A stretch of 64,000 nucleotides of DNA from the NCBI RefSeq assembly GCF_033880585.1, contig NZ_CP137624.1, positions 558,001-622,000 of the forward strand. Reading direction: 5' to 3'. Within the stretch, counting starts at the first letter, position 1. Every line of letters begins with the position of its first letter. Shown in pieces: positions 8,043 through 62,651 of this stretch. The position numbers were made by a program, and so were the translations under genes. The notes below the pieces were generated by a model that ran no database searches, had not been told where the DNA came from, and saw only the letters and a list, made by a program, of their open reading frames with translations. Origin of the DNA: Lysinibacillus louembei (GTDB lineage Bacteria; Bacillota; Bacilli; Bacillales_A; Planococcaceae).

Positions 8043-8066
8043 ATCATTTGCCTTCTTTCTTATACT

Positions 8067-8665: not shown

Positions 8666-8669
8666 ATGT

Positions 8670-9654: not shown

Positions 9655-9681
9655 TGAAAGGTTACCAAAAACAACCTTTCA
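9655..9681 (-). terminator. Terminator after the D,D-carboxypeptidase gene
   Basis: TGAAAGGTT at 9655 pairs with AACCTTTCA at 9673, followed on the minus strand by an ATTTTTTT tract. The 9482-9654 gap otherwise shows only AT-rich promoter-like sequence. Confidence 0.75.
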
Positions 9682-9700
9682 CCTTTATTATTTTGAAAGC

Positions 9701-10621: not shown

Positions 10622-10698
10622 AAATAACAACTCCTTTTCTGTATGCTTCTATTGAAACATAAAAAAAGGAGCATTTTTTTAATTAACCATTAGTAAAT

Positions 10699-10715
10699 TC
10701 TTAAGGTTTCTTAAG
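10699..10715 (-). promoter_or_regulatory. TCTTAAG direct repeat upstream of the carboxypeptidase gene
   Basis: Two identical TCTTAAG heptamers at 10699-10705 and 10709-10715 (10-base period), overlapping the histidine kinase stop codon. The same pair occurs upstream of the response regulator (12616-12633). OmpR/PhoB-type regulators bind such direct repeats, so this is probably the operator of the VanR-like regulator. Confidence 0.55.
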
Positions 10716-12520: not shown

Positions 12521-12615
12521 GGCTTCATCTCTCCTTACTATATTCCCTACACCGTTCCCCTTGTCCATTATTATTATACATTCTCATAAATAGTACCGTA
12601 TATTTCTTGTGAATA

Positions 12616-46905: not shown

Positions 46906-46994
46906 GTTCATTCCTCCAATTGATAAATTTGCTGTTGATCGATAAATATGTCGAGCGTTTGCCCTTGTGTAACAGGCTCTGTATCATAAAAGCC

Positions 46995-47867: not shown

Positions 47868-47917
47868 TATATCCTCCCTGTCTATTACTACTATAGGGTG
47901 CAGATATTTAGAAAATA

Positions 47918-47943
47918 TTAACGTACTATTAATAAAACGTTAA
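47918..47943. promoter_or_regulatory. Putative LysR operator
   Basis: TTAACGT at 47918-47924 and ACGTTAA at 47937-47943, an inverted repeat in the divergent promoter region between the ABC operon and lysR. Confidence 0.45.
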
Positions 47944-48004
47944 AAAAATTCTAATAAAATAAAACAAATGTAAGATTTTATCTAATTTACTTTAGGGGGA
48001 TAAA

Positions 48005-48886
48005 ATGAATAATATAAAATTGCAGGCATTTTGCTTATTAGTGGAGCACAGAAAGCTTGCTCCTGTCGCACAGCAGCTTAATATTACAAAGCCAACTGTT
48101 TCCTTTCATATTCGTTCCATTGAAGAGGAGTATGGCATCCAGCTATTTCGGACAAATGCTGGTGGCTATCGCCTAACCGCTGCTGGTGAAGGGCTCTATC
48201 ATTACGCAAAGCAAATTGTACAGCTACATAAAGAGATGACAAATTTTATCGAGGATTTATTGGCAGGCGATGTCGGCTCCATCCGACTCGGTGCGAGTGG
48301 CTTACCTGCGCATATTTTTATGCCAGAGCTTATCCACAAAATTTCAACAACCTATCCAGCTATACAAATTTCATTTATCGTGAAAACAGCACCTGAAATT
48401 GAGGAGCTTGTCGCACAGCATGAGCTTGATTTCGGCTTTATTATGGAAACAAAGCAGGAAAATCCATTACTCGTTTACGAAACAATCGGTGAAGACACCT
48501 TTGTTTTAGCATTCAGTCCAAAGCACGAGCTCGCCTCAAAGCACAACATGACAAAGGCGGATATTTTACAATATAAAATTTTGCTGCACACCTCCTCCAG
48601 CTCAACAAACTATTTTATTGAGCAATGGCTAGGCTCGCAATCCGCCATGAACAAAATGGAATTAGACTCAATCAGCACCATCAAAAAAATGCTAACATTC
48701 GGCACAACTGTCGCCTTCCTGTCAGCAGCTTTAATTGAGGAGGAACTACGCGCTGGCTCCTTAGTCAAAAAGGATTTAGCTGACCGCTCCTTAACACGCA
48801 AAATCCAATTTATCTATTCTAGCTCTCGACTAGACAGCCCAATTGATGTTTTTGTCAAAAAGGCAATTGGGGAGTTGCAGATTTAA
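48005..48886 (+). CDS. LysR-family transcriptional regulator
   Basis: 293 residues. N-terminal helix-turn-helix (KLQAFCLLVEHRKLAPVAQQ then LNITKPTVSFHIRSIEEEYG) and a periplasmic-binding-like effector domain. Divergent from the ABC/MBL operon, which it most likely activates when its substrate is present. Confidence 0.9.
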   Translation: MNNIKLQAFCLLVEHRKLAPVAQQLNITKPTVSFHIRSIEEEYGIQLFRTNAGGYRLTAAGEGLYHYAKQIVQLHKEMTNFIEDLLAGDVGSIRLGASGLPAHIFMPELIHKISTTYPAIQISFIVKTAPEIEELVAQHELDFGFIMETKQENPLLVYETIGEDTFVLAFSPKHELASKHNMTKADILQYKILLHTSSSSTNYFIEQWLGSQSAMNKMELDSISTIKKMLTFGTTVAFLSAALIEEELRAGSLVKKDLADRSLTRKIQFIYSSSRLDSPIDVFVKKAIGELQI

Positions 48887-48893
48887 TAAAAAA

Positions 48894-48928
48894 AGAAAGC
48901 TCTCATTACAAAGTGAAGAGGGCTTTCT
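48894..48928. terminator. Terminator between lysR and the convergent membrane protein gene
   Basis: AGAAAGCTCTC...GAGGGCTTTCT with T/A-rich flanks. Confidence 0.7.
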
Positions 48929-49358
48929 ATACTACTCTAGCAATCATTAAGTCTACAAACCAGAAATTCACACCTGGATATAAGCATATAAACATTAATT
49001 TAATGAAATAAAACTCATTCGTTAAATACTCATAAGTTAGTAGATCAGCATCCAATAGCTGAAGAATAATAACGGCTACGATACAGCCTGTTGCCATATG
49101 CAAAATAAGCGATAGCAGCTTTTTATTTTTGCTCGCTCTATCAATGATGATTGATGCAGGAATACCTATGCCGATTATGAATGGAGCAACACATACTAAA
49201 GAAAACGTTAAAATTAATATGAGGCTACTAATCAATGAAAATAGTATATTATCATGCGTTCCCTGTGTGACATTTGTATCCATTACATTTATTAAAAACC
49301 CAATATTAAATATAACAATAAAACTTGTTAGAAATTTTCTTTTTAAAATAGAATTCAT
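48927..49358 (-). CDS. Hypothetical four-helix membrane protein
   Basis: 143 residues with four predicted membrane helices (about 8-26, 40-66, 80-102, 112-140) and few charged residues. I do not recognise a family. It sits at the left edge of the AT-rich peptide island and could belong to it or to the chromosome. Confidence 0.5.
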   Translation of the reverse strand: MNSILKRKFLTSFIVIFNIGFLINVMDTNVTQGTHDNILFSLISSLILILTFSLVCVAPFIIGIGIPASIIIDRASKNKKLLSLILHMATGCIVAVIILQLLDADLLTYEYLTNEFYFIKLMFICLYPGVNFWFVDLMIARVV

Positions 49359-49766
49359 CGTAACATCTCCTTATAATAGAGAAGCATTCCACATAACCAT
49401 ATTGAATATAATGGATTCACTTACACTTAAATCAATTCAAATTATACACATCTAAACCTATAAAACCATCTCAAAACTATTTTTGCAAGAAACGTGTTAG
49501 AAACTATCAGTATAACAGGATTCTCCATCCATAAAAAAGCTGAATTTTAAAAGGATTTACGCTAGTTTATTGGAAATACCCATTTTGATCTACACAAAAC
49601 GTCAGAATCCTAGAGAAACAAGAGGACGTTTCAATATTGATGCATTGATTGTGAAGTGTTCAAGAAAAAAATCATTTAAATATAATATAAGACATTGAAC
49701 GAAAAACATACTGGTACATTAGTTATCATCCCAGATTTTGTAGAAAAATCTCATATGAATAATAAA
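49359..49766. other. Intergenic stretch with a short coding-like stub
   Basis: No intact gene. On the plus strand 49570-49688 reads without stops (EIPILIYTKRQNPRETRGRF, NIDALIVKC, then a stop) and has coding character, but has no start context and no family I recognise. It may be the left scar of the island at 49.4-59.2 kb. Confidence 0.3.
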
Positions 49767-49810
49767 AAACACCACCAATTGTTCGATTAACTCTAACATT
49801 GGCAGTGTTT
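49767..49810 (-). terminator. Terminator after the pheromone-like peptide gene
   Basis: AAACACCACCAAT and ATTGGCAGTGTTT pair in 11 of 13 positions with an 18-base loop; follows the small gene at 49816 on the minus strand. Confidence 0.6.
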
Positions 49811-49815
49811 CTTTA

Positions 49816-49941
49816 TTAAATAACCTTATAATAGTTAACGGTTTTTAAAGTGGGCTCATTTTCTGTTGCCCCCACCTCATAATTAATGTTTGTCCCTATC
49901 AGTATAAATGAAAATAATAATACAAAAATAAGTTTTCTCAC
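49816..49941 (-). CDS. Small secreted pheromone-like peptide (Phr/PapR/NprX type)
   Basis: 41 residues, GTG start at 49941 overlapping the regulator stop (TAGTG); GGGAG lies eight bases upstream inside the regulator gene. The N-terminus is a clean export signal (MRKLIFVLLFSFILIG); the rest is short and hydrophilic (YEVGATENEPTLKTVNYYKVI, split here: mature part likely within the last 8-10 residues, ending NYYKVI). Position, size and overlap match the cognate signal peptides of RRNPP regulators (papR after plcR, nprX after nprR). Not similar in sequence to those I know; assigned by layout. Confidence 0.75.
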   Translation of the reverse strand: MRKLIFVLLFSFILIGTNINYEVGATENEPTLKTVNYYKVI

Positions 49942-51233
49942 TATAATTGCTCCCAACTATGGATATTTTTATTTAAATAACTATACTTTGTTGCTTCTTG
50001 AAAATAAAAAGTTGCTAACTTATATTTTTTATTTTGTAAATAATACTCTGCTAATGCAATAGAATATTTATAGGCGTGTCGGTAATCTTGAATTTTTGAG
50101 AAATAATGAATCATTTTTAATGCTTTCTTTTGTGATGTTTCATTATTTTCATATAGTGCTTTATAAAACTCAAAATGTTGACGATAAGCATATAAACTTT
50201 CATCTTGCATTTCCTCATATAGCACTATTCCTTTATTGCACCATTTCAAAACAAGTGTTACTTGATTACTTCTAGAGTATTCAATAATTAGACAAAAGAT
50301 CGAAATAAAGTGACTCTTCTTGTCTGTTTTAGTTTCTATACTTTTATGAAAATAACAAATTCCTTCCTTTTGTTGTCCCATAACAATTTTCACAGACCCC
50401 ATATTATGGTATACAATTCCTAAATACCCTTGTAAGTTAAATTCGTTGCATATTTGCTTTGCTTTTACAAAGGTATCTAATGCCTCCGAATATTGTCTGT
50501 TTTTTTGATAGATGATACCCATTGATATGTAACCATCCAACACACGTTTCATCAATAATTGCTCTTTAAAATAACTTAAAGCTTTATCAATATACAATTT
50601 TGCTTCTATTAAACGATTATCTACTGCATAAATTGTCCCAATTATAAAATCTAATTCAGCTATTTCCCAATTGTCCATATCCACTTTAGAAATAATAGAT
50701 TGCAAATACTCTAAACATAATATCGATTTTTTAATCTCTTTAACATAATAATAGTATAGTGCCTTGTTCAACTCATGAAGGTACAGTTGCTGTGTATTAA
50801 AATGACTACTTGCATCTTCTAATATGACTAAATCCTTTTTTATTTCCTCAAAATTTCTTCCCACAACAATACGGAATCGCAACATAATCAATAAATATGT
50901 ATAATGGATTTGGATATTTCCTAAAAAGGGGGTTTCTTTTTCTAACTCCATTAACTTCTGCTCTATGATTTCTTTGACCCCTATACTAATTGCCTTTCTA
51001 TATACATCATATACGTATTTTTCAAATTCTTCGTTTTTAGAATCACCTCTTTCTATTTCTCGCAAGTTAATCCCTAGCTTTGATAATAATAAAGTTGCTA
51101 TTTCTTCACTTGGAATGATTTTGCCTTGCTCGATTCGTGATAAATAAGAAGTTGTACAAATTCCTTTAGATAAAACAAGCTGCTTCATGCCTTGTTTCAT
51201 TCTTTCCGCTTTGATAATATGCCCTACTTCCAT
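49941..51233 (-). CDS. RRNPP-type quorum-sensing regulator (PlcR/NprR/Rgg-like, HTH plus TPR)
   Basis: 430 residues. N-terminal XRE helix-turn-helix (residues 5-60; IKAERMKQGMKQLVLSKGIC then TTSYLSRIEQGKIIPS). Residues 90-425 are TPR-like helical repeats (for example YISMGIIYQKNRQYSEALDT and GIVYHNMGSVKIVMGQQKEG) that in this family bind a re-imported peptide. The signal gene follows it, and a nested palindrome separates it from the divergent peptide-enzyme operon, so it should control that operon in response to cell density. Very AT-rich like the rest of the island. Confidence 0.88.
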   Translation of the reverse strand: MEVGHIIKAERMKQGMKQLVLSKGICTTSYLSRIEQGKIIPSEEIATLLLSKLGINLREIERGDSKNEEFEKYVYDVYRKAISIGVKEIIEQKLMELEKETPFLGNIQIHYTYLLIMLRFRIVVGRNFEEIKKDLVILEDASSHFNTQQLYLHELNKALYYYYVKEIKKSILCLEYLQSIISKVDMDNWEIAELDFIIGTIYAVDNRLIEAKLYIDKALSYFKEQLLMKRVLDGYISMGIIYQKNRQYSEALDTFVKAKQICNEFNLQGYLGIVYHNMGSVKIVMGQQKEGICYFHKSIETKTDKKSHFISIFCLIIEYSRSNQVTLVLKWCNKGIVLYEEMQDESLYAYRQHFEFYKALYENNETSQKKALKMIHYFSKIQDYRHAYKYSIALAEYYLQNKKYKLATFYFQEATKYSYLNKNIHSWEQL

Positions 51234-51291
51234 TACATATACTTATCTCCTTATTTTAGTAATAAACTCTAACATATTATAGCATTTTTTA

Positions 51292-51350
51292 TTGTGTAAT
51301 TCTGCCTAAAAACATACATAAATATGTTTTTTAAGATAAAAATTACACAA
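51292..51350. promoter_or_regulatory. Nested palindromic operator between quorum regulator and peptide operon
   Basis: Outer arms TTGTGTAATT at 51292-51301 and AATTACACAA at 51341-51350 are perfect inverted copies. Inside, AAAAACATA at 51308-51316 mirrors TATGTTTTT at 51323-51331. The right outer arm contains TTACAC, a possible -35 box 17 bases before TATAGC at 51366, which would put the operator on the promoter of the peptide gene. A further half site (ACAATTACA) lies at 51372. Confidence 0.65.
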
Positions 51351-51429
51351 CAAGGGTATATTTAATATAGCACAATTACATGTTACATTTACTATGCAAG
51401 ACATTCTTATTCAGAAAGGAGAGCTTGAT

Positions 51430-51543
51430 ATGACAAAAAAAGCAAATAACACAAAACCATCATCAACTAAAAGTCCTGTGCCTCAAATCGCATTAGATTT
51501 AAGTGTCTTAGGCGGAAGTAGAATCGATAAAGATCGTTTATAA
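51430..51543 (+). CDS. 37-residue putative precursor peptide
   Basis: Strong ribosome site (GAAAGGAGAG) before the ATG. The protein starts MTKKANNTKPSSTKSP, continues with a hydrophobic stretch (QIALDLSVL) and ends GGSRIDKDRL. The N-terminal half looks like a soluble leader; a Gly-Gly at 28-29 precedes an eight-residue tail holding both arginines (R31, R36). No Cys. It heads the operon and is set off from the enzymes by a hairpin (51566-51598), the usual way RiPP precursors are made in excess. An arginase-family enzyme in the same operon makes the arginines the likely modification sites. Not similar to any precursor I know. Confidence 0.7.
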   Translation: MTKKANNTKPSSTKSPVPQIALDLSVLGGSRIDKDRL

Positions 51544-51565
51544 AAATCATATACGTGACTACTTA

Positions 51566-51598
51566 ATATAGCGAGTTTGTTATGCTCGCTATATTTTT
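51566..51598 (+). terminator. Hairpin after the precursor peptide gene (partial terminator)
   Basis: Perfect 10-base stem ATATAGCGAG/CTCGCTATAT with a nine-base loop and a T5 tail. Since no other promoter is evident before the next gene, it probably lets some transcription pass. Confidence 0.85.
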
Positions 51599-51618
51599 AA
51601 ATTAAAGGAGAAAAAAAC

Positions 51619-52785
51619 TTGAGCCAAATATTGTTTAATCATCCTAGTGAAAAATTATATGAATTGTTTAAAACTACCCCAACACCTGCTATTGTTTTTG
51701 ATTTAGATTCTGTTGAAAAAACTACACATCAAATGAAAAGTGACATAAAAAATTTTATAAATACCAAAATAAATTTTGCGGTAAAAGCTACTTATAATGA
51801 GTCTGTTTTAAAAACGATTTCAAATATTATACAAGGATGTGATGTAGCATCTGTTGGAGAACATAAATTAGCTAAACAATGCGGGTTTGAAAATTTCACC
51901 AGTACCAGCCCTTATTACTCAATAGATGATATGAAGTATTTTTGTGCTAACGATGTCGTATTAGATTTAGATAGCATTGAACAAATTATTCAGTTTGGGG
52001 AACAGAACTTTGAATCTAAAAAAATTGGGTTAAGAGTTGCCGTTCCAATACCAGCAATACTTGAAAATAACGCTTCGATTGGGTTGGATAGTAGGTTTGG
52101 TTTGGAATTAAATGAAGATACATTAGATATGCTAACAGCAGTTACACAAAAATATAATCTAGAAATTGTTCGCTTTCATGTCCACACAGGACAAACTACT
52201 CCAGATTTACTCATCTATAAACTAAAGTATCTATTGGAAAAGTCAGAAAATTTCCATAATCTAAAGATGATTAACTTTGGTGGTGGCTTTTTGTATCTAT
52301 ATGCACATTATGAAAAATTAAATAAAACCATTGAAGAATATAACTATATATACCGAAATTGGTCTAAAAAAAACGGAAGGAAAATGGAATTTTTAGTTGA
52401 ACCAGGTTCTGCCTTTGTCACAGGAAATGGATATCTTTTATCTAAAGTCGTAGCTCTAAAATCACATACTGGAGAAACACCATTTGTTCAGTGTGATTGT
52501 TCATTTTGGAATTTAAATCCTTGGATTATATCCAATCCTTTGAATATTTCTAATTATGGAGATACTATCAACGAATACACTCTTTGCGGCGCTACTCTAT
52601 TTGAGCAAGATAAAATGCCTAATAAAAAAATTTCTAAAGTTAGAATTAATGATTTACTTATTTTCCCGGCATATGGGGGCTACGTAGGCAATATGAAGAA
52701 TTTTAATTTATTACATAAAATTCACTTCTGGGGTTTTTATAAAGGAGAATATTATGAAATTGACAAGCCCAGCTTTTTACCTTAG
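51619..52785 (+). CDS. Fold-type III PLP enzyme, ornithine/diaminopimelate decarboxylase-like (first copy)
   Basis: 388 residues, TTG start after AAAGGAG. N-terminal PLP barrel: PLP lysine K56 in NFAVKATYNE, VASVGEHKLA, RFHVHTGQ, the phosphate loop INFGGGF and EPGSAF. The C-terminal beta domain follows. In decarboxylases of this family the site contributed by the partner subunit has Cys in G-x-x-C; here the equivalent reads GATLFEQD, so Cys is Leu. That points to changed chemistry or a non-catalytic partner of the second copy at 55287. Relatives such as BtrK act on carrier-bound amino acids, so a peptide-bound substrate is conceivable. Confidence 0.85.
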   Translation: MSQILFNHPSEKLYELFKTTPTPAIVFDLDSVEKTTHQMKSDIKNFINTKINFAVKATYNESVLKTISNIIQGCDVASVGEHKLAKQCGFENFTSTSPYYSIDDMKYFCANDVVLDLDSIEQIIQFGEQNFESKKIGLRVAVPIPAILENNASIGLDSRFGLELNEDTLDMLTAVTQKYNLEIVRFHVHTGQTTPDLLIYKLKYLLEKSENFHNLKMINFGGGFLYLYAHYEKLNKTIEEYNYIYRNWSKKNGRKMEFLVEPGSAFVTGNGYLLSKVVALKSHTGETPFVQCDCSFWNLNPWIISNPLNISNYGDTINEYTLCGATLFEQDKMPNKKISKVRINDLLIFPAYGGYVGNMKNFNLLHKIHFWGFYKGEYYEIDKPSFLP

Positions 52786-53842
52786 TGACAATGTAAGTGT
52801 TACACATGATCATAATCAAATAACATTTATTGATTTTTCTCGGGGTATTTCAGATGAATATACGGTAGCTGACAATTTTGATTTTTCAATTTTTGAAACA
52901 GGAATATCTGAATATCAAATAAACAATTCACCGGAAATGTTATCAATGCTAAAGAAAGGATACTTTGTCTCTTTACTAGACTTATATCAAAAATATAGAG
53001 AAAAGTTGAATAATAGATCATTTTTTGGTTTTCCTTTTCTTTCAATAGGAGAAGTAATTAATCGTGATAACATCACAGTATCAATATTGGGAGTTTGTTA
53101 TGATTTAGGTGCTTCATACAAGAAAAATCAACAATTTACTCCTTATATTTTACGTGAAACAAGTCAGTCAAATATTTCAAAACAATTTGGAAATAACATG
53201 ATTGCTGATTGTGGTGATATTACATCAGATACCGTCATGAAACAAAATGGTGAAAAAATCCAGCAATTGCAAACAATTTGTTCACTGCTATCAAAGTATA
53301 AAAAAAAACCATTAATCATTGGTGGTGATCACTCTATTTCATTTTACTCTATATCAGGATTATTGGATTCGTATAATAAAATTACTATTTTACATATTGA
53401 TGCTCACTTTGATGGCGTAGGTTATTTTGAGAATGATATAGAAAATCTAGATCATTCAAACTTCATTAATTATTTGTTATTTGATGAACGGGTTGAAGAA
53501 ATAATTCATATTGGTAATAGACAAATGGGTTATACCCCTCAAGAATCAAAAAAAAGAAGGTTTGTCTCTTTGGAACAATTTTTAACAGAAGCCCCAAAGA
53601 AAGATGCGATTTATTATCTAACTTTTGATGTGGATTGGATTGATCCTACGATTATCAGTAGTGTTGGTACTCCAGTTGCATTTGGTGCAACTTTAAAAGA
53701 TGTTGCATCATTAATTAGTCATTTAAAAGAATACAATTTAATCGGTGCAGATATAGTTGAATTTATAGGCTCTTTTGAAAAAAATTCAGAAAACATTACA
53801 ATTAATTCAATTATTCAACAAATATTAAATTTATTAAGGTGA
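52754..53842 (+). CDS. Arginase/ureohydrolase-family enzyme, candidate peptide arginase
   Basis: 362 residues. All dimanganese ligand motifs are intact: GGDHSISF near residue 195, HIDAHFD near 217 and TFDVDWIDP near 297, with a late Glu (VEFIGSFE). The arginase fold begins only at about residue 97 (SILGVCYDLGASYKK); the first 95 residues are an extra domain not found in free-arginine enzymes and could bind a leader peptide. Overlaps the previous gene by 32 bases; AAAGGAG precedes the ATG. Peptide arginases that turn Arg into ornithine in RiPPs are known (OspR in landornamide). Free agmatine or arginine hydrolysis is the alternative. Confidence 0.85.
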   Translation: MKLTSPAFYLSDNVSVTHDHNQITFIDFSRGISDEYTVADNFDFSIFETGISEYQINNSPEMLSMLKKGYFVSLLDLYQKYREKLNNRSFFGFPFLSIGEVINRDNITVSILGVCYDLGASYKKNQQFTPYILRETSQSNISKQFGNNMIADCGDITSDTVMKQNGEKIQQLQTICSLLSKYKKKPLIIGGDHSISFYSISGLLDSYNKITILHIDAHFDGVGYFENDIENLDHSNFINYLLFDERVEEIIHIGNRQMGYTPQESKKRRFVSLEQFLTEAPKKDAIYYLTFDVDWIDPTIISSVGTPVAFGATLKDVASLISHLKEYNLIGADIVEFIGSFEKNSENITINSIIQQILNLLR

Positions 53843-53847
53843 TAACA

Positions 53848-55218
53848 ATGAATTACCATTTAGTTAATAGTATATTAAAGCAGGATTATTCTAATTTATT
53901 TTTAGAACAAATTAAGGAACTAGACTATTTAAAAGAAATTTCAAATATCTCATTAAACAAACATACAATAACAATTGATAGAAAAGATCCGTTTTTAGTT
54001 GAGAAAGAAATAGAACTATATGGTAATAAAATTAGAATGGCAATCATTGAACAAGTTCAAAGTAAGATAAGTAAATATTACAAGTCTCCAATTATTGACA
54101 AAGAGGCATTCGAAGCAAAAATATTATTTAACTATGAAAGAAGTTATTCAAATGATAATCTTGCAAAAATGGCTTGGGCTGACATATTGGAATCTTCAGA
54201 AGTGCTTCTATTTAGTTCTGGGATGGCTACAATTAGTACTATATTAACTTCAATCACCTCAATATTTAATAATAAATGTAATTGTGTGATTTTAGGAAAA
54301 TATTTTGAAACTCTAACAATATCCAATTTACTTCAAAAAATAGGGGTGAATATTTCTCAAAAAATAGAGGAAAATCATGTATATAATATTCTTTTTTTAG
54401 AGCCTACAAAATATTCATGGAAATTAGAAAATCAAGATATTGAACAAATTAAGAATCAATTACTTTCTAAAGATATTCAGTTTGTAATTATTGATTCTAC
54501 CTTATCGCAGGATAGCCGATTTGCTAATGAAATAGTGACATTCATTAATGATGGAAAACTGCAAAACAAATATGTGATTGAAATAAAATCTCGATTAAAG
54601 CTATATCAATTGGGATTTGAATTCTGTAATTTGGGAAGTGCAGAGATTTACGCTACAGCCCACAATGATATTAAAAGTATCTCGGAATATATATCAAAAA
54701 TTAGAACCGTATTGGGTACAACTCCAGATTTTTTTTCACTAAGTATGCTTGAACATCCCATATTAAATTCACAAGGATTGACAGAAAAATATATAAACAC
54801 AATTTTTTCAAACAATAAAATTTTAAGAAACTATGGAAAATCTTCTATAAACACTAACTTTATCACTAAAATATCAAACAAGATAACTGGTAAACCCTTT
54901 ACTATAATTGAAATAGGCGATAAAAAAATTAATAATTATGCACCTATTATTGATCATCTTAGACTTATACAAAAAGAATATCTCCCTTGTTTATTTTTAG
55001 GTTCAAGTTTTGGTTTTAGACACCATAGATATGAAATGATTATTCCTGATAACCGAATTGACGAAGCATATCTGAAATTTTGCCCAGGGTATCGTAAAGG
55101 ACCTTCTTTTGATTTATTTTGTAACTATTTTAGTTGGTTATCACAAATAAGTTCTATTGAGGAATTTTCTAATAATACGGGAATACAATCTAAGTTCGAT
55201 ACAAAACAATTTGATTAA
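53848..55218 (+). CDS. Divergent Cys/Met-metabolism-type PLP enzyme
   Basis: About 456 residues. The fold-type I layout of cystathionine gamma-synthase/methionine gamma-lyase enzymes is recognisable: LLFSSGMATISTILTS (PLP phosphate loop, SSGMAxI), FVIIDSTLSQDSRFANE (Asp pairing PLP nitrogen) and VIEIKSRLKLYQLG with a candidate PLP Lys where the family has SxTKYxxGH. The match is weak elsewhere. Start at the ATG at 53848 behind AAGGTGAT. No Cys or Met donor pathway is nearby; it could move an amino-acid side chain onto the peptide or perform beta/gamma elimination. Reaction unknown. Confidence 0.65.
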   Translation: MNYHLVNSILKQDYSNLFLEQIKELDYLKEISNISLNKHTITIDRKDPFLVEKEIELYGNKIRMAIIEQVQSKISKYYKSPIIDKEAFEAKILFNYERSYSNDNLAKMAWADILESSEVLLFSSGMATISTILTSITSIFNNKCNCVILGKYFETLTISNLLQKIGVNISQKIEENHVYNILFLEPTKYSWKLENQDIEQIKNQLLSKDIQFVIIDSTLSQDSRFANEIVTFINDGKLQNKYVIEIKSRLKLYQLGFEFCNLGSAEIYATAHNDIKSISEYISKIRTVLGTTPDFFSLSMLEHPILNSQGLTEKYINTIFSNNKILRNYGKSSINTNFITKISNKITGKPFTIIEIGDKKINNYAPIIDHLRLIQKEYLPCLFLGSSFGFRHHRYEMIIPDNRIDEAYLKFCPGYRKGPSFDLFCNYFSWLSQISSIEEFSNNTGIQSKFDTKQFD

Positions 55219-55286
55219 ATTAAGAAAATATATAAGTAATTTTAAAATTCCCTACTTGAAATTATGAGCTAAACTAACCGGAGGTA

Positions 55287-56462
55287 ATGAAATTGGATAA
55301 TAGAAATAAAAAAATGGATTTAGAATATTTAAGGAAATCTAGTTTTATACAATTAGAAGATGAAATATTAGATAGCATCCCTACTCCATATATTATCTAT
55401 AATTTATCTCATTTATTAGGTAATTTAAATCAAATAATCTCAATTATCGAACCAGATTTCTTCTATATTCCAATAAAGGCTAATTATAGTCAAAAAATTC
55501 ATGATTTTTTAGCAAAACATACTGATGGTGCAGATGTAGCGTCATTGGGCGAAATTGATTTAGCTACTAGCGCTAAATATAAATCATTACATCTTTCAAC
55601 GCCATTTTTGACTATTGATATACTCAAAAAAGCAAATCTTAGAGAGTGTGATTCAATAGATTTATATAGCCTTCATCAAGCTAATATTTTAATAAGTTAT
55701 TTTGCAACAAATAAAAAAATAAATAATCCTAGTATAAGTCTTCGTTTAAAAGTCCCGTATACAAGTAATAACTCAGAAACTTACTTGAATAACAGTAGAT
55801 TTGGAATTTTATACAAATCAAAAGAATTTGATGATGTAATACTATTATTAAAGAAAAATAATATCAAAATAGAATGTATACATATACACATCGGTGAATA
55901 TAACAATTTTTCAGTCATTTCTCAAATTCAAAAGTTTTTAGAAAAAATCACTTTAGATATACCTTATTTAAAAAGGATAAATTTAGGTGGAGGGTTCACA
56001 TCATTATTTGGAAAATATACTGATAATGAAATAAGGGATACATTTCATAGTTTTAAAAATAATATTTTGAAAGTTAATTCTGCAATAAAATTTATAATAG
56101 AACCGGGTATGTTAACATTAATGAGTAGTGGAACATTAGCCGTAAGTTGTATTGATTCAATTAATAGTAAAGATATTATAGTAGACATATCAGCATTTAA
56201 TTTTTTCTCTTGGGTGAAACCTAGATTATTACCATCAATATCTGCAATAAATGAAAATACTGAAATCACAATTTATGGTACAACATGCTATGAGGAAGAT
56301 ATAGTCTCTGAAAAAGTATATGTATCTAAAATCCCCAAAATCGGAGAAAAAATTTTCCTTGCTCCTGCTGGTGCATATATTAATAGTATAAATAGAAATT
56401 TACATATGTTCCATATTACAAATGAACTCTATATTTTCGAAGGAGTAATTTATGAATCTTAA
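55287..56462 (+). CDS. Fold-type III PLP enzyme, ornithine/diaminopimelate decarboxylase-like (second copy)
   Basis: 391 residues and a paralogue of the enzyme at 51619. PLP lysine K64 in YIPIKANYSQ, VASLGEIDLA, HIHIGEY, INLGGGFTSLFG, IIEPGM. Here the partner-subunit site reads YGTTCYEED: the Cys is kept, so this copy is the likely active decarboxylase. The ATG at 55287 is only two bases from CGGAGG; a TTG at 55293 is better spaced and may be the real start. Ends inside the exporter gene's start (11-base overlap). Confidence 0.85.
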   Translation: MKLDNRNKKMDLEYLRKSSFIQLEDEILDSIPTPYIIYNLSHLLGNLNQIISIIEPDFFYIPIKANYSQKIHDFLAKHTDGADVASLGEIDLATSAKYKSLHLSTPFLTIDILKKANLRECDSIDLYSLHQANILISYFATNKKINNPSISLRLKVPYTSNNSETYLNNSRFGILYKSKEFDDVILLLKKNNIKIECIHIHIGEYNNFSVISQIQKFLEKITLDIPYLKRINLGGGFTSLFGKYTDNEIRDTFHSFKNNILKVNSAIKFIIEPGMLTLMSSGTLAVSCIDSINSKDIIVDISAFNFFSWVKPRLLPSISAINENTEITIYGTTCYEEDIVSEKVYVSKIPKIGEKIFLAPAGAYINSINRNLHMFHITNELYIFEGVIYES

Positions 56463-58068
56463 TAAAAATAGCAATATTTTATTTGTAATAAAACAAAGTA
56501 AAATTTCAACTATATATAAAATTTCAGTATTTGTAATTGCTATTGTTTTTGCACTACTTTCGATAATATATCCACTGTTACTAAATGAAATCATTCAAAA
56601 ATTAGTTTTGGGGATTGTAGAAAGTAAAAATATTTTATTGCTAATTCTAATACTTATCATTCAAGGAATATTAAATGGGTTCTCTATTTATTTTTTTAGT
56701 GTTTATTGTGAAAAATCTATATTAGATACTCGAATAATGTTTTGGAATAAATTATTTTCAATATCAAGGGAATCTTCTGAAACCTATAGTCCAGAAATAT
56801 TGAATAATTATTTAATTACTAATATTGATGAACTAGGTTCATTTGTAACTGAAAATATTCCAAGTCTAATAACCAACAGTTTGGTAATCATTTCCTACAG
56901 CATATCTATTTGGATCATCAACAAATACTTATTAATTATTTTGATAATTTTTCTTATTATATATTTTTTAATTACAATTCCATTCTCAAAAGTGATGCAA
57001 AAAATAACGATGGAGCTAATAGTAACAACTAATACATTATCAGTGCATTTTATAAATGCACTGAGAAATATGGATGTTATAAACACACATAAAATTTCAA
57101 TTACAATGCAAGATAAAGTTACTAATTTATTCTCTAAAATTATGAAATTATCTTTAAAAGAAGCAAAGATATATTCTTGGTTAGAGCCTATTAATCAAGT
57201 ACTAACATCAATTTTGTTATTGAGCACTTTCGGCATAGGTGCTTTGTTGATATCTACAAATCATTTAACAATAGCATCTTTATCTGTTTTCATTATTATA
57301 TTGATGCAAGCAATTCCTTCAGCTAAGGCAATTATGCAATTCAGATTATCGTGGAAAAGAACGGAGTCTATTGCAGCACCGATTAGAGATATACTAGAAA
57401 TTGAAGAACTTGAAGAAAACAAGCACACTTTGTTTGATATAAATAAAATTGTAGAACTAACAAATTTAAATTTTCATTATGAAGATATAGCTTGTTTAGA
57501 AAATATAAATTTAGAAATAAACAAAGGGGAAATAATTGCTATTGTTGGACCATCTGGCAGTGGAAAAACCACACTTTCTAAATTAATAGGAGGTATATAT
57601 ACAAAATACTCTGGACAAATAAAGAAACCTTTAGATTTAAAAATCTCTTACGCGCCTCAGCACAGTAATTTATTTAGTGAGAAAGTTAGTGATAATTACC
57701 TTACAGATGGTACCATATTTATGAATGAGGTAAATAAAAAAATTGAAGAACTATCTGGTGGTGAAAAACAGCGAGTTAACTTGGATAGGGCTTTCTCAAA
57801 TGAGTATGACCTAATTATCTTAGATGAACCAACTAACAATTTAGACAAATCCTCTATAGATAAATTAATTTATAAAATAAAAGAGGAGAAGACTAAGAAT
57901 AAGTCTATTATTTTGGTTACTCACAATATTGAAATTACAAAAATAGCTGATATAATAGTGTTCTTAGATGATGGAAAAATTACAGGTATTGGCAATTACA
58001 ATTTTCTTTTAGAGTCCCACAAAAAATTCCGAGCATATAAAACACTCGAAAATATGGATAGTATATAA
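56452..58068 (+). CDS. ABC exporter, fused membrane and ATPase domains
   Basis: 538 residues: six membrane helices (about 20-305) then an ATPase with Walker A GPSGSGKTT, Q-loop APQHSNLF, signature LSGGEKQRV and Walker B LIILDEPTNN. No N-terminal C39 peptidase, so it does not cut a Gly-Gly leader itself; any leader removal needs another protease. Most likely exports the finished product and so also protects the producer. AAGGAG before the ATG. Confidence 0.88.
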   Translation: MNLNKNSNILFVIKQSKISTIYKISVFVIAIVFALLSIIYPLLLNEIIQKLVLGIVESKNILLLILILIIQGILNGFSIYFFSVYCEKSILDTRIMFWNKLFSISRESSETYSPEILNNYLITNIDELGSFVTENIPSLITNSLVIISYSISIWIINKYLLIILIIFLIIYFLITIPFSKVMQKITMELIVTTNTLSVHFINALRNMDVINTHKISITMQDKVTNLFSKIMKLSLKEAKIYSWLEPINQVLTSILLLSTFGIGALLISTNHLTIASLSVFIIILMQAIPSAKAIMQFRLSWKRTESIAAPIRDILEIEELEENKHTLFDINKIVELTNLNFHYEDIACLENINLEINKGEIIAIVGPSGSGKTTLSKLIGGIYTKYSGQIKKPLDLKISYAPQHSNLFSEKVSDNYLTDGTIFMNEVNKKIEELSGGEKQRVNLDRAFSNEYDLIILDEPTNNLDKSSIDKLIYKIKEEKTKNKSIILVTHNIEITKIADIIVFLDDGKITGIGNYNFLLESHKKFRAYKTLENMDSI

Positions 58069-58093
58069 TTAACTTTAAAAAGGAGAGATAAAT

Positions 58094-58522
58094 ATGTACA
58101 ACTGTAGAAAAGCTTCAAATGAAGAAATTAGGTTTGTTTTCGATGAATTAGACAAATTCAATATGCAAAAAAAACCGTTACATCAATCTGAAGAATCTGT
58201 TTCTTTTAAACATATTGTTGAGGATGACGGAAAAATAATAGGAGGAATATTCGGTTACTCATCTTACTATAAAATCGGATATATTGATACATTATGGGTT
58301 GATGAGAATTATCGTCATAAAGGTATTGGAACGGAACTTTTAAAAGCAATTGAAAATGACTTGCACGAATTTGGGTGTGAAGTTATCCATCTTGAAACGT
58401 TCGATTTCCAAGGTCCTGAATTCTATAAAAAAAATGGATATGAACAATTCGGGTCTTTATTTTATCCAAATGCAAATCTTTATGAGTTTTTTTTAAAAAA
58501 AGAGAAGTTCAATCAACAATAA
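58094..58522 (+). CDS. GNAT-family N-acetyltransferase, possible self-immunity enzyme
   Basis: 142 residues. Acetyl-CoA motif YRHKGIGTELLKAIE after the strand IGYIDTLWVDE, and EFYKKNGYEQFG near the end. Last gene of the peptide operon, 25 bases after the exporter with its own AAGGAG site. A GNAT protein beside a PLP decarboxylase recalls microcin C MccE, whose acetyltransferase domain detoxifies the product; here too acetylation of a new amine (ornithine or decarboxylated residue) would be a natural self-protection or tailoring step. Confidence 0.82.
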   Translation: MYNCRKASNEEIRFVFDELDKFNMQKKPLHQSEESVSFKHIVEDDGKIIGGIFGYSSYYKIGYIDTLWVDENYRHKGIGTELLKAIENDLHEFGCEVIHLETFDFQGPEFYKKNGYEQFGSLFYPNANLYEFFLKKEKFNQQ

Positions 58523-58608
58523 TTAAATCATGTATCTTTTGCAAGTAATCATCATTCACTATCTAATTTTCCCTAAAATTTAAATCTTTTATTAAAATCA
58601 CATAAAAG

Positions 58609-58650
58609 CTGTTAGAAAAGCCTTATATCATACGTTTTTCTAACAGTTTT
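58609..58650 (+). terminator. Terminator after the peptide operon
   Basis: CTGTTAGAAAA and TTTTCTAACAG with a T-tail, 87 bases after the last gene. Confidence 0.8.
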
Positions 58651-58736
58651 CCTTATTCATAATGTCCTTAACTATTCTCTGCTTTATGAATTACATAAGT
58701 AATCTTTTTATTAATCATCTCCATTTTTTGGATTAT

Positions 58737-58898
58737 TTAAAACTTTAAAATTTCTCCCCTAGTTTGGCAGATGTAAGATAATGTATTTAATACCTCATCT
58801 ATAATATTCATTTCGCATTGTTCACAATAATAAACCGTTTGATGCCCTACTCCACAAAATAAAACTGGATCCCAGACAACTTCTTTAGTAACATTCAT
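58737..58898 (-). CDS. Possible small Cys-containing protein, may be a relic
   Basis: 53 codons starting MNVTKEVVWDPVLFCGVGHQ, then CEQC, and ending REILKF-like (RGEILKF). Four Cys in CG..CEQC..C spacing could be a zinc knuckle, but there is no good ribosome site and an overlapping upstream frame (MSDKDDLSDIIIFNE) suggests a frameshifted older gene. Weak. Confidence 0.3.
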   Translation of the reverse strand: MNVTKEVVWDPVLFCGVGHQTVYYCEQCEMNIIDEVLNTLSYICQTRGEILKF

Positions 58899-59016
58899 TA
58901 AAAATGATTATGTCACTTAGATCATCTTTATCACTCATGTTCTATAAAGATTTGCTACACTTCCTTTATCATTAAATGTTTTATATTAGTACATCTTTAA
59001 ATTTACCTTTTAATAA

Positions 59017-59169
59017 ATGAAAAGTGTGAGAATAATAGCTGAACAACTTGGAAATACGCTGAAAATGGTCATGAACACATACGGTCATGTAATGAAGGAA
59101 TTAGAGCAGGAATCTGTGACTGTCTTTAGCGCAAGCTTGGCAACTGGGGCTAAAAGTGGGGCTAATTAA
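59017..59169 (+). pseudogene. C-terminal relic of a tyrosine recombinase (phage/ICE integrase)
   Basis: About 50 codons reading VRIIAEQLGNTLKMVMNTYG then HVMKELEQESV and a stop at 59167. This is the end of an integrase: the QLG..xMxMNTYGH segment carries the region of the catalytic Tyr (NTYGH). The rest of the gene is missing. It marks the right edge of the AT-rich island and suggests entry by a mobile element. The remaining part of 58651-59016 shows nothing more that I can support. Confidence 0.75.
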
Positions 59170-59264
59170 TTTTTACCCCTCTCCCACCGTTGATATATCA
59201 ATACTTCTTGGGCTTGATATGCTATACTATTTCCATATTCGAAATAAAAGGAGGCTTTCTTTTT

Positions 59265-60647
59265 ATGAGTCATTTAGAAAAATTGGATGCTTATTTTATA
59301 GAGCATCGTGCACGCCATTTGTCGGAGTTAAACGAGTTTTTGCGCATTCCTAGTATTTCAGCATTGTCTGAGCATAAAGGAGATATGCGTGATGCGGCAA
59401 ATTGGCTAGCAGAGCATTTAAAATCTTTAAAAATTGAAAATGTAGCGGTCGAGGAAACAGCTGGGCATCCTGTTGTTTATGGAGAATGGTTACATGCTGA
59501 AGGCAAGCCAACGATTTTATTCTACGGGCACTATGATGTACAGCCTGTAGATCCGCTAAATTTATGGGAAACGCCACCTTTTGAACCGACGATTCGTGAT
59601 AATAAATTGTTTGCGCGTGGTTCTTCTGATGATAAAGGACAAGTGTTTATGCACTTAAAAATGATTGAAGCATTGTTTGCGACAGAGGGTACACTGCCAG
59701 TAAACGTGAAGTTTATTTATGAAGGTGAAGAGGAAATTGGTAGCCCATCTCTTCCAAAATATACAGAAGATAATAAAGAAAAATTAGCAGCGGATCTAAT
59801 TGTTATTTCTGATACAGGTCTTTATGCAAAAGGCAAGCCTGCTGTATGCTACGGTCTACGTGGCTTAACTGGCGTGCAAATTGATGTGCGCGGAGCGAAA
59901 GGCGATTTACACTCTGGTCTTTATGGCGGTGGTGTCCAAAATGCGATTCACGCATTAACTGAAATTTTGGCTTCCTTCCGCGATGAGCACGGGACAATTC
60001 AAGTCGATGGCTTCTACGATAAAGTGTTGCCATTATCTGATGAAGAGCGCCAAGCATATCGTGATTTGGGCTTTGATGAGGAAGCATTGAAGGACGAGCT
60101 AAAAGTACCTGCATTATTCGGTGAAGCTGGCTACTCTTATTTAGAGCAAACATGGGCACGCCCGACATTAGAAATTAATGGCGTCTTCGGTGGCTTCTCT
60201 GGTGAAGGCATTAAAACGGTATTACCTGCTGAGGCTGGTGCGAAAATTACATGCCGTTTAGTACCAAACCAAGACCCTGAGGAAATTGTAGCATTATTAA
60301 AGGCACATATTGAAAAACACAAACCGACTGGTGTGGAAGTTATCGTTTCTGAATTCGATAAAGGAAAACCATACTTAACACCATTCGATCACCCATTAAT
60401 TCAAGCAGCTGGTCGCTCTTATGAAAAAGTATACAAAGTACCAACTGCTTACACACGTGGTGGTGGCTCGATTCCAATCGTAGCAGCATTCGATGAAATT
60501 TTAAACTTACCTGTTGTGTTAATGGGCTTCGGCTTATCTGAAGAAAATTTCCATGCACCAAATGAGCATTTCCATTTGGAAAACTTCGACCAAGGCTTAC
60601 GTGTATTAGGCGATTACTTACATGAAGTTGCAGAGTTAAAGCTATAA
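59265..60647 (+). CDS. M20-family dipeptidase
   Basis: 460 residues. Metal motifs FYGHYDVQPV (His, Asp), RGSSDDKGQV (bridging Asp) and KFIYEGEEEIGSPS (Glu pair, catalytic base and ligand), VISDTGL and a late His (SEENFHAPNE). Cytosolic carnosinase-like dipeptidase. ATG at 59265 preceded by AAAAGGAGG; an upstream in-frame extension has no ribosome site. Confidence 0.92.
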   Translation: MSHLEKLDAYFIEHRARHLSELNEFLRIPSISALSEHKGDMRDAANWLAEHLKSLKIENVAVEETAGHPVVYGEWLHAEGKPTILFYGHYDVQPVDPLNLWETPPFEPTIRDNKLFARGSSDDKGQVFMHLKMIEALFATEGTLPVNVKFIYEGEEEIGSPSLPKYTEDNKEKLAADLIVISDTGLYAKGKPAVCYGLRGLTGVQIDVRGAKGDLHSGLYGGGVQNAIHALTEILASFRDEHGTIQVDGFYDKVLPLSDEERQAYRDLGFDEEALKDELKVPALFGEAGYSYLEQTWARPTLEINGVFGGFSGEGIKTVLPAEAGAKITCRLVPNQDPEEIVALLKAHIEKHKPTGVEVIVSEFDKGKPYLTPFDHPLIQAAGRSYEKVYKVPTAYTRGGGSIPIVAAFDEILNLPVVLMGFGLSEENFHAPNEHFHLENFDQGLRVLGDYLHEVAELKL

Positions 60648-60650
60648 CAA

Positions 60651-60680
60651 AAAAGGTCTGTCCAGATGGGCAGACCTTTT
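60651..60680. terminator. Bidirectional terminator
   Basis: AAAAGGTCTGTCC...GGGCAGACCTTTT between the dipeptidase gene and the convergent ctaB. Confidence 0.85.
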
Positions 60681-60681
60681 C

Positions 60682-61578
60682 TTATAGAGCTTGCATAATT
60701 AATCCGACAGATGCGTAAATAATAACTGTTGCAAACAAAACCATCATGTGAATAAGAGAAAAAGCAAACATTTTATTCGCCCATGTTTTCCCTTCCATTT
60801 TATGATAGCCGACAAAGCTTAACCATAGCCAAATACCGCCAAGCACTAATGATACAAGTGTTAATCCTAAGCTTAATGGTAAAAATAAAAAGCTTGTTAG
60901 CATTAGTAGCACTAAATACACATTTGTTTGAATATATGTTCGGCGCTGCCCTTTCGCTACAGGAAGCATTGGAATATTCGCAGCAGCATAATCATCATGC
61001 TTGCGAATAGCAATCGCGTAAAAATGCGGCATTTGCCAAATCACCATAATAATAAACAATGCCCAGCATGCCGGATGCCAAATATTTGGTGCAACTGCTG
61101 CCCAGCCAATTAATGGTGGCACTGCTCCAGAAATACTACCAACCTCTGTGTTCCAAATCGTTCGGCGCTTCGTCCACATCGTATATGGCACAACATAAAA
61201 AAATACACCTAAAAAGCCTAAAAACATTGCAAGTGGTGTCGTAAATGCCAGTGCAATTAAACCGAGAATTAAGAAGACAACCCCAGCTATTAACACTGTT
61301 CGTGTATTCAGTTCCCCAGTTACAGTAGGACGTGTCTTTGTACGAGGCATCACCTTATCGATATCGCGATCATACAAATTATTAAAGATACCAGCCGCTG
61401 CAATCACAAGGGCTGAGCCTACTGTTGCCAAAATAATATTTGGGATGTTTTCAATAAAACTTAGTTCATACGTATAAAGCGCAAGCATAAGCCCAGCAAC
61501 CATCGGAATCAAATTTGATTTAATGATGCCAGTCTTCACAGCCTGTGCCCATAAATTTATAGTAGATTGCTTCTGCAT
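60682..61578 (-). CDS. ctaB: Protoheme IX farnesyltransferase (heme O synthase)
   Basis: 298 residues with about eight membrane helices of the UbiA fold. Asp-rich prenyl-diphosphate sites: NNLYDRDIDKVMPRTKTRPT near residue 68 and KHDDYAAANIPMLP near 193. Adds farnesyl to heme b, giving heme O for cytochrome oxidase. No cta or cyd gene is adjacent in this window. Confidence 0.93.
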   Translation of the reverse strand: MQKQSTINLWAQAVKTGIIKSNLIPMVAGLMLALYTYELSFIENIPNIILATVGSALVIAAAGIFNNLYDRDIDKVMPRTKTRPTVTGELNTRTVLIAGVVFLILGLIALAFTTPLAMFLGFLGVFFYVVPYTMWTKRRTIWNTEVGSISGAVPPLIGWAAVAPNIWHPACWALFIIMVIWQMPHFYAIAIRKHDDYAAANIPMLPVAKGQRRTYIQTNVYLVLLMLTSFLFLPLSLGLTLVSLVLGGIWLWLSFVGYHKMEGKTWANKMFAFSLIHMMVLFATVIIYASVGLIMQAL

Positions 61579-61688
61579 AATCGTTACCCCTCATTATAGT
61601 CACTATTATTAAGTATACATTATATATGAGACTATGTGCTATGGAACTAGATGTTTTGTCATAAATTTGTGCGAGGGGGCTTGGGACG

Positions 61689-61766
61689 CTATCGGTAACT
61701 TCAGTTATTCTATCGGCAACTTTTTAAATTCTATCAGCAACTTTGACTATTCTATCGGCAACTTAT
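61689..61766 (-). repeat. Four-copy 21-bp tandem array starting at a stop codon
   Basis: Cores begin at 61689, 61710, 61731 and 61752: exact 21-base period. On the gene strand each unit reads AGTTGCCGATAGAA plus seven variable bases. The first unit supplies the last codons and stop of the NERD gene (AGT TGC CGA TAG). Sequence differs from the array at 23004 but period, strand and placement on the stop codon are the same. Confidence 0.95.
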
Positions 61767-62651
61767 CCGATATCGCCTCCATCTTCTTTCACCTTCATAT
61801 TGAAAGCCTAATTTTTTCAGCAAATATTTCGCACTATCACTCGACTCAACTCCCACAAATCTTCGAAACTCTTCATTCGTAATCCATTCATCTACTAATA
61901 AACAATAATCCCGCATGGCTTGTTTTAATAATATGCCATCGTCTTTATAATTACATTTTAGACACTTAAAATGCCCATAATGATACTGCATTTTGCTTTG
62001 GCACTGCACACAGAGCACCCCTTGGCGAACTCTAGCTTTATCAATATTTAATTGTGGCTTATGAATTGTATGCATTTGAAGTAATTGCCTAGCTAAACTT
62101 TGAAGTCCTTGCGAAGATAACCGTGTAGCATATTGTTTGAGGTGCTCTCGAACATGGAATTCAAGTCCACTGCGATGAAATACCGGCTCACCCTGTGGGA
62201 TATGACCAATAATTGTTTTGGGTAATGCAAAGACAACCGCATATAACACTGGCAAATCACTAACAACCCTACGTAACATTCTTTGATGGCGACGCACTTG
62301 GTCTAGAGGATTGCGAAAACCTTGAATAGTGCCATCCTCTAATGTTCTTGTAAACTGGTGCCGTTCCTCATCAAAATCAATACGACCAACGATATTTTTA
62401 ATTTCTATAATCAGTAGAAACTTTTGACAAAGAAAAATCGTATCTATTTGATGTGCATTTGTTTGAAAATCATGTAGCAAATAATAAGGCTCATCCAGCT
62501 GCATGTCGTGCCAATTTTGGTCAACATAGCGCTCACCTAGCAAGCCTTGCTGCAAGCGAATTAGCTCATCCTTGTATTCAGGAAATCCTCGCCGAATTGC
62601 CGCTTGAAGCAATTGTTCTTTAACAGTCTGCTCACGCTGCAAAACAATCAT
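61752..62651 (-). CDS. NERD-domain (nuclease-related) protein with zinc knuckle
   Basis: 299 residues. NERD domain: QIDTIFLCQKFLLIIEIKNI (the D...ExK-like core) followed by NPLDQVRRHQRML. A CxxC...CxxC pair (LCVQCQSKM and KCLKCNYKD) lies near residue 225. Probably a DNA-handling protein of unknown role. ATG at 62651 with GGGGGGA upstream; the frame opens further up to 62723 without ribosome site. Its last residues are encoded by the tandem array. Confidence 0.82.
   Translation of the reverse strand: MIVLQREQTVKEQLLQAAIRRGFPEYKDELIRLQQGLLGERYVDQNWHDMQLDEPYYLLHDFQTNAHQIDTIFLCQKFLLIIEIKNIVGRIDFDEERHQFTRTLEDGTIQGFRNPLDQVRRHQRMLRRVVSDLPVLYAVVFALPKTIIGHIPQGEPVFHRSGLEFHVREHLKQYATRLSSQGLQSLARQLLQMHTIHKPQLNIDKARVRQGVLCVQCQSKMQYHYGHFKCLKCNYKDDGILLKQAMRDYCLLVDEWITNEEFRRFVGVESSDSAKYLLKKLGFQYEGERRWRRYRISCR

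Follow-up and report, generated by a model that had tools for sequence, protein, structure and literature searches.

Here, we describe a seven-gene operon (positions 51430–58522, + strand) in a 64,000-nucleotide stretch of Lysinibacillus louembei DNA (assembly GCF_033880585.1, contig NZ_CP137624.1, positions 558,001 to 622,000; hereafter the window), which appears to be a gene cluster for a ribosomally synthesized and post-translationally modified peptide (RiPP). The operon encodes a short precursor peptide, two enzymes with the fold of LysA (LysA1 and LysA2), an arginase, a Cys/Met-type pyridoxal phosphate (PLP) enzyme resembling cystathionine gamma-synthase (CGS-like), an ATP-binding cassette (ABC) exporter, and a GNAT acetyltransferase. 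From the sequences and their conservation, this would be a RiPP family distinguished by its set of enzymes, with a predicted function, and no description of the cluster was found in the literature searched (titles and abstract openings, among the matches listed, with partial coverage). We infer a pathway, its catalytic steps all included, in which the arginase makes ornithine, the CGS-like enzyme alkylates it, and the LysA-fold enzymes decarboxylate the adduct to aminopropyl-ornithine, a proposal in which we place moderate confidence.

The evidence includes the precursor gene (51430–51543, + strand), whose 37-residue product contains the core ...LDLSVLGG-S-R31-IDKDRL and was named by the first-pass annotation before any homology search. 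Conservation of this small open reading frame (ORF) with the operon had been set beforehand as a test, and a short ORF with an [S/T]R core was found to precede the enzyme genes in 16 of the 17 distinct arginase-type loci, window included; in the 17th (L024), the contig starts inside LysA1, so that a precursor cannot be seen. In leave-one-out profiles, from which the tested precursor was removed along with its twin in three near-identical pairs, each locus had its own precursor as the best six-frame match (16/16). Moreover, the window ORF scored an E-value of 3.9e-4 among 2445 segments against a profile built without the window, the next segment being at 1.8. Ser30 and Arg31 are invariant in an alignment of 13 precursors, while that of L064, found later, has Thr for Ser. 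When all 17 cores are counted (from 16 precursors, as L016 carries two in one precursor and a partial copy in L008 is not counted), Arg is at core position 2 in every one, preceded by Ser (16/17) or Thr (1/17) and followed by Pro in 15 and by Pro-Arg in 13. The core is preceded by Gly-Gly in 14 of the 17, by Met-Gly in L014 and L064, and by Ala-Ala in L020; with cleavage after Gly-Gly, it would comprise 5–14 residues that are variable beyond S/T-R-P. This conservation of the short ORF, together with the invariant Arg after Gly-Gly-Ser, supports the earlier suggestion that the pathway is RiPP-like and that its precursor is genuine. As for the two arginines then put forward as targets, Arg31 is invariant in the relatives and stands, whereas Arg36 is not conserved and was rejected as a modification target. 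Two further observations concern precursor genes elsewhere: that of the Mammaliicoccus sciuri plasmid pWHA07 (L006, 6647–6730) is missing from an incomplete PLSDB gene table in which the next seven genes are present, and the L008 cluster may have two precursors, since a partial second copy with an identical core lies at the contig end (11748–11825, − strand).

Relatives were sought first with the arginase as query and later with aligned Cys/Met-type enzymes. At E ≤ 1e-20, the arginase had matches in three genomes among 261 from the order, and at E ≤ 1e-30 the Cys/Met-type enzyme had matches in two among 398 from the class, the window's own genome being counted in both. Narrower searches with the latter enzyme gave matches in 4 of 298 genomes from the family that includes the Nonomuraea locus (1e-30), in 3 of 343 from the genus that includes the Streptomyces locus (1e-60), and in 4 of 32 from the genus to which G049, a genome of the same family as the window's, belongs (1e-30), two of these four being of the arginase type. 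A scan of genome contigs gave 20 loci, 12 of them having both arginase and Cys/Met-type enzyme. After removal of duplicates (L012 = L008; L018 = L009), the arginase-type loci from Bacillota and Actinomycetota number 17, these being the window, L006 (a Mammaliicoccus sciuri plasmid), L008, L009, L010, L011, L013, L014, L015, L016, L017, L019, L020, L024, L039, L040, and L064. A broken cluster from the Streptomyces genus (L065, 7349–13203) was left out; here, the CGS-like gene is interrupted, and neither arginase nor precursor was found in 19 kb. Among plasmids, PF00491 matched 330 records, and the Mammaliicoccus record was a relative among the two examined of the 30 listed, while a Pantoea plasmid locus (L007) was rejected, as it has cupins and no PLP pair adjoining the arginase. 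In viral contigs, 95 stretches fitted a pattern and none was confirmed.

The arginase (52754–53842, + strand) carries an extra N-terminal domain and matches PF00491 with an E-value of 2.5e-39. As in L009, L010, and L017, this is its only match of the two arginase families, PF12640 (the OspR family) giving none. All 14 aligned arginases keep the GGDHS, DAHxD, and DVD motifs, whose residues we take to be the ligands of the dimetal site, without variation, and the structural model, with a predicted local distance difference test score (pLDDT) of 82, has agmatinase (PDB ID: 7lox) as its best PDB fold match (E 4e-17). At the N-terminus there are about 90 extra residues, modeled as strands followed by helices, which are compatible with a winged helix resembling a RiPP recognition element (RRE), and two single members weakly match winged-helix families in this domain. 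Gene linkage and the invariant Arg of the core lead us to infer that this PF00491 arginase acts on peptide-bound Arg.

For the CGS-like enzyme (53848–55218, + strand; ATG start, with GTG at 53839 also possible), family profiles gave little. There was no Pfam match at E 0.01 and only a weak NCBIfam match (E 3e-4, far below the cut-off), and PF01053 was matched by just one of 13 members (best E 0.0065, not above the cut-off). The model of the window enzyme (pLDDT 76, with the first ~110 residues mostly below 65) has 9hee, 6ovg, and 6ldo as best Foldseek matches, with cystathionine gamma-lyases and CndF at E about 1e-11 and a TM score near 0.5 by query length; the match to methionine gamma-lyase 9hee has an E-value of 5e-12 and a template modeling (TM) score of 0.48 by query and 0.67 by target. 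A weak hidden Markov model match to 1n8p (E 5e-4) was also found. The YER, SSGM, and LKxxQ motifs are kept in these enzymes, as is an invariant Lys251, which its motif marks as the probable PLP lysine. With the fold and PLP motifs of the cystathionine gamma-synthase/gamma-lyase family present, the CGS-like enzyme is a candidate aminocarboxypropyl transferase, and such a partner occurs in every precursor-bearing cluster.

Both LysA-like proteins belong to the fold-type III PLP enzymes and match PF02784, LysA1 (51619–52785, + strand, TTG start) with an E-value of 9e-19 and the decarboxylase LysA2 (55287–56462, + strand) with one of 1.8e-11. Their L009 counterparts are both relatives of diaminopimelate decarboxylase, BtrK, ornithine decarboxylase, and carboxynorspermidine decarboxylase; LysA1 of L009 matches all four, and its LysA2 matches diaminopimelate decarboxylase 2qgh (E 2e-21). 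In the LysA alignment, from which L040 was left out, the Cys that we presume to be the catalytic residue of the decarboxylases is kept in all 11 LysA2 rows, that of the window included. LysA1 is present in all 16 precursor-bearing clusters, and LysA2 was not found in four of these (L015, L019, L020, and L064). The LysA tree, lacking a valid outgroup and with weak fork support (81/67), served solely to group LysA1 apart from LysA2. Earlier described as two decarboxylase-fold enzymes and a Cys/Met-type PLP enzyme, the three proteins have folds supported by PF02784 and Foldseek, and their roles are best read as those of an aminocarboxypropyl transferase plus decarboxylases. A further LysA-like gene lies away from the window at about 2.336 Mb of the same genome (L068, 7011–8138).

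The pathway that we propose would proceed as follows. In the precursor, a short leader containing the LDL motif would end at Gly-Gly and be followed by the core, Ser-Arg-..., and the N-terminal domain of the arginase may bind the leader. Hydrolysis of the Arg31 side chain by the arginase would then yield ornithine with its amine exposed. From a homoserine ester or S-adenosylmethionine (SAM), the CGS-like enzyme would form an electrophilic vinylglycine-PLP species and pass a 3-amino-3-carboxypropyl group to the ornithine amine, after which a LysA-fold enzyme would decarboxylate the adduct to N-(3-aminopropyl)ornithine and so create a side chain similar to spermidine. The other LysA-fold enzyme may serve in a second round or as a partner subunit. 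Finally, the leader would probably be cut off after Gly-Gly, and the short cationic peptide would leave via the ABC transporter.

The enzyme pair at the center of this scheme also occurs outside arginase clusters. On an Enterococcus faecalis plasmid (LR962333; L030, 4558–12544), CGS-like and LysA-like genes accompany those for a ThiF enzyme (with PaaA, MccB, and ubiquitin E1 enzymes among its PDB relatives), a major facilitator superfamily (MFS) exporter, a GNAT, and a 538-residue protein lacking a Pfam match; no precursor was found in this locus. An adjoining M3 peptidase, read by eye, was dropped, as Pfam did not confirm it. In L026 (Terrihalobacillus, 7988–12599) and L066 (genus of G049, 7329–12203), a PF02441 flavoprotein is encoded with a LysA2-type and a CGS-like enzyme, the CGS-like gene of L066 being interrupted, and short ORFs there end in DKPC (8612–8716) and DKVC (11257–11406, − strand), respectively. 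L038 (6033–10820) and L067 (genus of G049, 532–5413) have genes for a flavin adenine dinucleotide (FAD) oxidoreductase, LysA-like, CGS-like, and MFS proteins, and in each a short ORF ends in VDKVY. Picked by eye, these four short ORFs all end in DK-x-[C/Y], and thus an amine is kept next to the C-terminus. By analogy, given an amine, a gamma-synthase-type PLP enzyme and a LysA-fold decarboxylase could perform both aminopropylation steps. We therefore read the pair as an aminopropylation module, since it recurs with arginase (ornithine) and with the DK-x-[C/Y] ORFs (Lys), each offering an amine. Such a reading would account for the gene content by chemistry that is already known. More tentatively than the pathway itself, and still short of what we would call probable, we suggest that this module is a widespread and previously unrecognized one, which would furnish ribosomal peptides with polyamine-like aminopropyl side chains and be coupled to arginase, ThiF, flavoprotein, or FAD oxidoreductase. 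The arginase type would give very short cationic [S/T]-(modified Orn)-Pro-... peptides in Bacillota and Actinomycetota.

Several observations weigh against the aminopropyl-ornithine pathway or its wider extension. Leu occupies the catalytic Cys position in all 15 LysA1 rows. Both the acceptor nucleophile and the donor are guesses, and other PLP chemistry on ornithine is possible. PqqD and RRE profiles gave no match to the N-terminal domain of the arginase, so that its possible binding of the leader is deduced from the topology of the model. The window itself is among the most divergent members, with long LysA branches, and its core does not have Pro-Arg after Ser-Arg. As most precursors were found first by motif search, with three (L014, L020, and L064) read by eye from upstream frames, the conservation of the motif is partly conditioned. 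Lastly, of the seven alphaproteobacterial CGS-like loci, six have no nearby arginase, four yielded no LysA-like gene next to the CGS-like gene, and none showed a RiPP context that we could see; the CGS-like family is therefore not tied to peptides everywhere. In the other three (L021, L022, and L025), a LysA-like gene does lie beside the CGS-like gene, on the other strand. As to their surroundings, the L023 CGS-like gene is near glnD and mutS by Pfam, and L028 and L029 have a similar setting by eye.

The Leu of LysA1 would suit an alternative in which Arg is still converted to ornithine, but the PLP enzymes carry out other chemistry on ornithine or on the chain ends, with LysA1 acting, for example, as a decarboxylation-dependent transaminase or oxidase that gives a cyclising aldehyde, or as an epimerase. 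Fold-type III PLP enzymes include racemases, and the four clusters in which LysA1 alone was found also fit such a role. Yet a redox role specific to ornithine leaves unexplained why a CGS-like partner is in every precursor-bearing cluster and why the CGS-like and LysA pair occurs with other enzymes. Furthermore, a Schiff base on a peptide-bound residue requires a free amine, and decarboxylation also requires a carboxylate on the same carbon. On balance, we regard this alternative as rather unlikely, though deserving of serious thought. The shortness of the core and its variability past S/T-R-P would also suit a peptide that is a scaffold or carrier, with a small amine molecule being built at the Ser-Arg end and later released as the product, and BtrK, a LysA-fold relative by family match, acts on a carrier-bound amino acid according to its PDB name. 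This we consider improbable, for the Pfam and NCBIfam scans found neither an aminoacyl-tRNA-dependent ligase nor a carboxylate-activating enzyme among the operon products. Although free amino acids are the usual substrates of the arginase and decarboxylase families, we consider it very improbable, and the least plausible explanation, that this is a normal catabolic operon for polyamines or arginine, in which free Arg would be converted to ornithine, free amino acids would be decarboxylated, and the short ORF would be a leader or a chance occurrence. Conservation of the short ORF, in two phyla and with an invariant [ST]R, led us to reject free polyamine catabolism; likewise, the four enzymes reach no NCBIfam cut-off, the clusters have an exporter and accessory GNAT or kinase genes, and the operon is located on an island missing from a same-species genome.

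Coordinates and spacing bear out the first-pass description of seven same-strand genes, mostly overlapping or close together. The intergenic distances along the operon are, in order, 75, −32, 5, 68, −11, and 25 bp, and a Shine-Dalgarno-like sequence precedes most of the genes. The AT-richness noted at that stage holds as well, with a GC content of 27.4% for the operon compared with 38.0% in the window outside the island; the lowest value of any 7.1-kb stretch left of the island was 34.4% (every 100th start sampled). A hairpin lies in the interval between the precursor and the enzyme genes (51565–51595, + strand), as identified by fold calculation and terminator scan. It has a 12-bp stem and a folding energy of −16.2 kcal/mol (z −3.05), with 2 of 200 shuffles folding equally well, although the terminator scan of the region, which has this hairpin among its entries, found 3 against 3.0 expected from shuffles and hence no excess. 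It is a candidate attenuator or partial terminator. Pfam and NCBIfam scans of the seven operon products gave no match to radical SAM (rSAM), YcaO, ThiF, or lanthionine families, which agrees with the initial remark that genes of these kinds are lacking, and NCBIfam (June 2026) named none of the four window enzymes above its cut-off.

The ABC exporter (56452–58068, + strand) comprises membrane and ATPase parts (PF00664 and PF00005), and no peptidase domain was found in it. It is followed by the GNAT acetyltransferase (58094–58522, + strand; PF00583, E 2e-16), which at 142 residues is short and differs from the ~300-residue GNAT of other loci. The DNA of this region (58071–58501) is 76–78% identical to stretches elsewhere in three congeners. 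For these two reasons we do not claim the window GNAT as an immunity protein, and the earlier idea that acetylation by it provides dedicated immunity is doubtful here. A ~300-residue GNAT and/or an APH-like kinase was found by Pfam or BLAST in 9 of the 16 other arginase-type loci, the remaining seven being partly checked; the GNAT is in L006, L008/L012, L010, L011, L015, L016, and L017, and the kinase in L009, L014, and L015. Near two actinobacterial clusters there are also 2-oxoglutarate-Fe(II) oxygenase-like proteins (L014, 6513–7223; L017, 11813–12358), of which that of L017 weakly matches PF13640 (E 0.004) and that of L014 does not; by their sequences, extra hydroxylation is possible.

The operon resides on an AT-rich island of ~9.7 kb (49528–59217; GC 27.8%) that is missing from the same-species genome G066, which aligns with window positions 46000–49527 (97%) and 59218–62000 (95%) with 7 bp between. 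Similarly, position 49525 is joined to 59218 in congener G067 and 48888 to 59211 in congener G068, each with 9 bp between, while congener G065 matches on the right flank only. In this empty-site comparison, 40 of the 134–163 first-look candidates per genome were scored. A mobile RiPP gene cluster is our best explanation for the operon on this island. Divergent from the operon is a regulator of XRE helix-turn-helix (HTH) and tetratricopeptide repeat (TPR) architecture, RRNPP-like (49941–51233, − strand; HTH_3, E 3.8e-9; TPR_12, E 7e-6, below the cut-off). Its 3′ end is overlapped by a 46-residue, PapR-like secreted peptide ORF (49816–49956, − strand), which has a hydrophobic N-terminus and no Pfam or NCBIfam match. 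This ORF is a candidate signal of the HTH/TPR regulator, and such a pair would suggest peptide-controlled expression. HTH-regulator-like ORFs are also near the clusters in L009, L066, and L067. Close to the right island border, a short ORF (59017–59169, + strand) without a Pfam match contains a TYGHVM stretch, which resembles the C-terminus of a tyrosine recombinase.

Among known systems, the nearest precedent for the arginase is KgrD of the enteropeptin pathway, a PF00491 arginase acting on a peptide, where the ornithine is later modified on its amine (PMC12703449). While the two clusters share this arginase family, the operon products here have no match to a thiomorpholine-forming enzyme or Fe-S methyltransferase, PLP enzymes are present instead, and the precursor lacks Cys. 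That paper, on peptide arginases, has no word in its main text that starts with PLP, pyridoxal, GGS, decarboxylase, cystathionine, or GNAT. The peptide arginases of PF12640 (OspR, FlmR, and OhkR), including that for landornamide, likewise convert Arg to ornithine on a ribosomal precursor, as proposed here, but they are of another Pfam family and have other precursor types. Aminopropylation of a ribosomal peptide in two steps is described for microcin C, in which MccD attaches the 3-amino-3-carboxypropyl group and decarboxylation by the PLP domain of MccE follows, with a GNAT domain for immunity (PMC10491745, PMC12250964), the reverse step order being not fully excluded (PMC10491745). In contrast to microcin C, the operon products have no match to ThiF/MccB or to a SAM aminocarboxypropyl transferase, and the group would go to the side chain of ornithine rather than to a nucleotide phosphate. 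A PLP enzyme is also proposed to put an aminocarboxypropyl group on an amine in muraymycin biosynthesis, where Mur24 would N-alkylate via a vinylglycine intermediate (PMC10491745), though Mur24 resembles 1-aminocyclopropane-1-carboxylate synthase, whereas our enzyme has a CGS-like fold and a proposed peptide acceptor. The E. faecalis cluster shares the CGS-like, LysA-like, and GNAT genes with the window but has ThiF in place of the arginase, an MFS exporter, and no precursor that we could find. Loline biosynthesis (LolC and LolD) offers a further precedent. Literature searches for GGSRPR, for aminocarboxypropyl with RiPP precursor peptide, and for aminopropyl with RiPP, ornithine, and PLP-dependent each gave no match, at partial coverage.

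If our reading is correct, the cluster would represent a new RiPP family, as its enzyme set was not found to define any known one, and the predicted aminopropyl-ornithine would be a peptide modification of which we found no report in the literature searched. Such clusters are easily missed, because their precursors are short and, in the gene table of the Mammaliicoccus plasmid, not listed, and here the GGSR motif provides a simple search handle. The minimal set of precursor, arginase, CGS-like enzyme, and one LysA-like enzyme is small and experimentally tractable. Moreover, if the clusters indeed make short peptides that bear polyamines, with acetyltransferases and phosphotransferases linked to them, such products may be of antibacterial interest.

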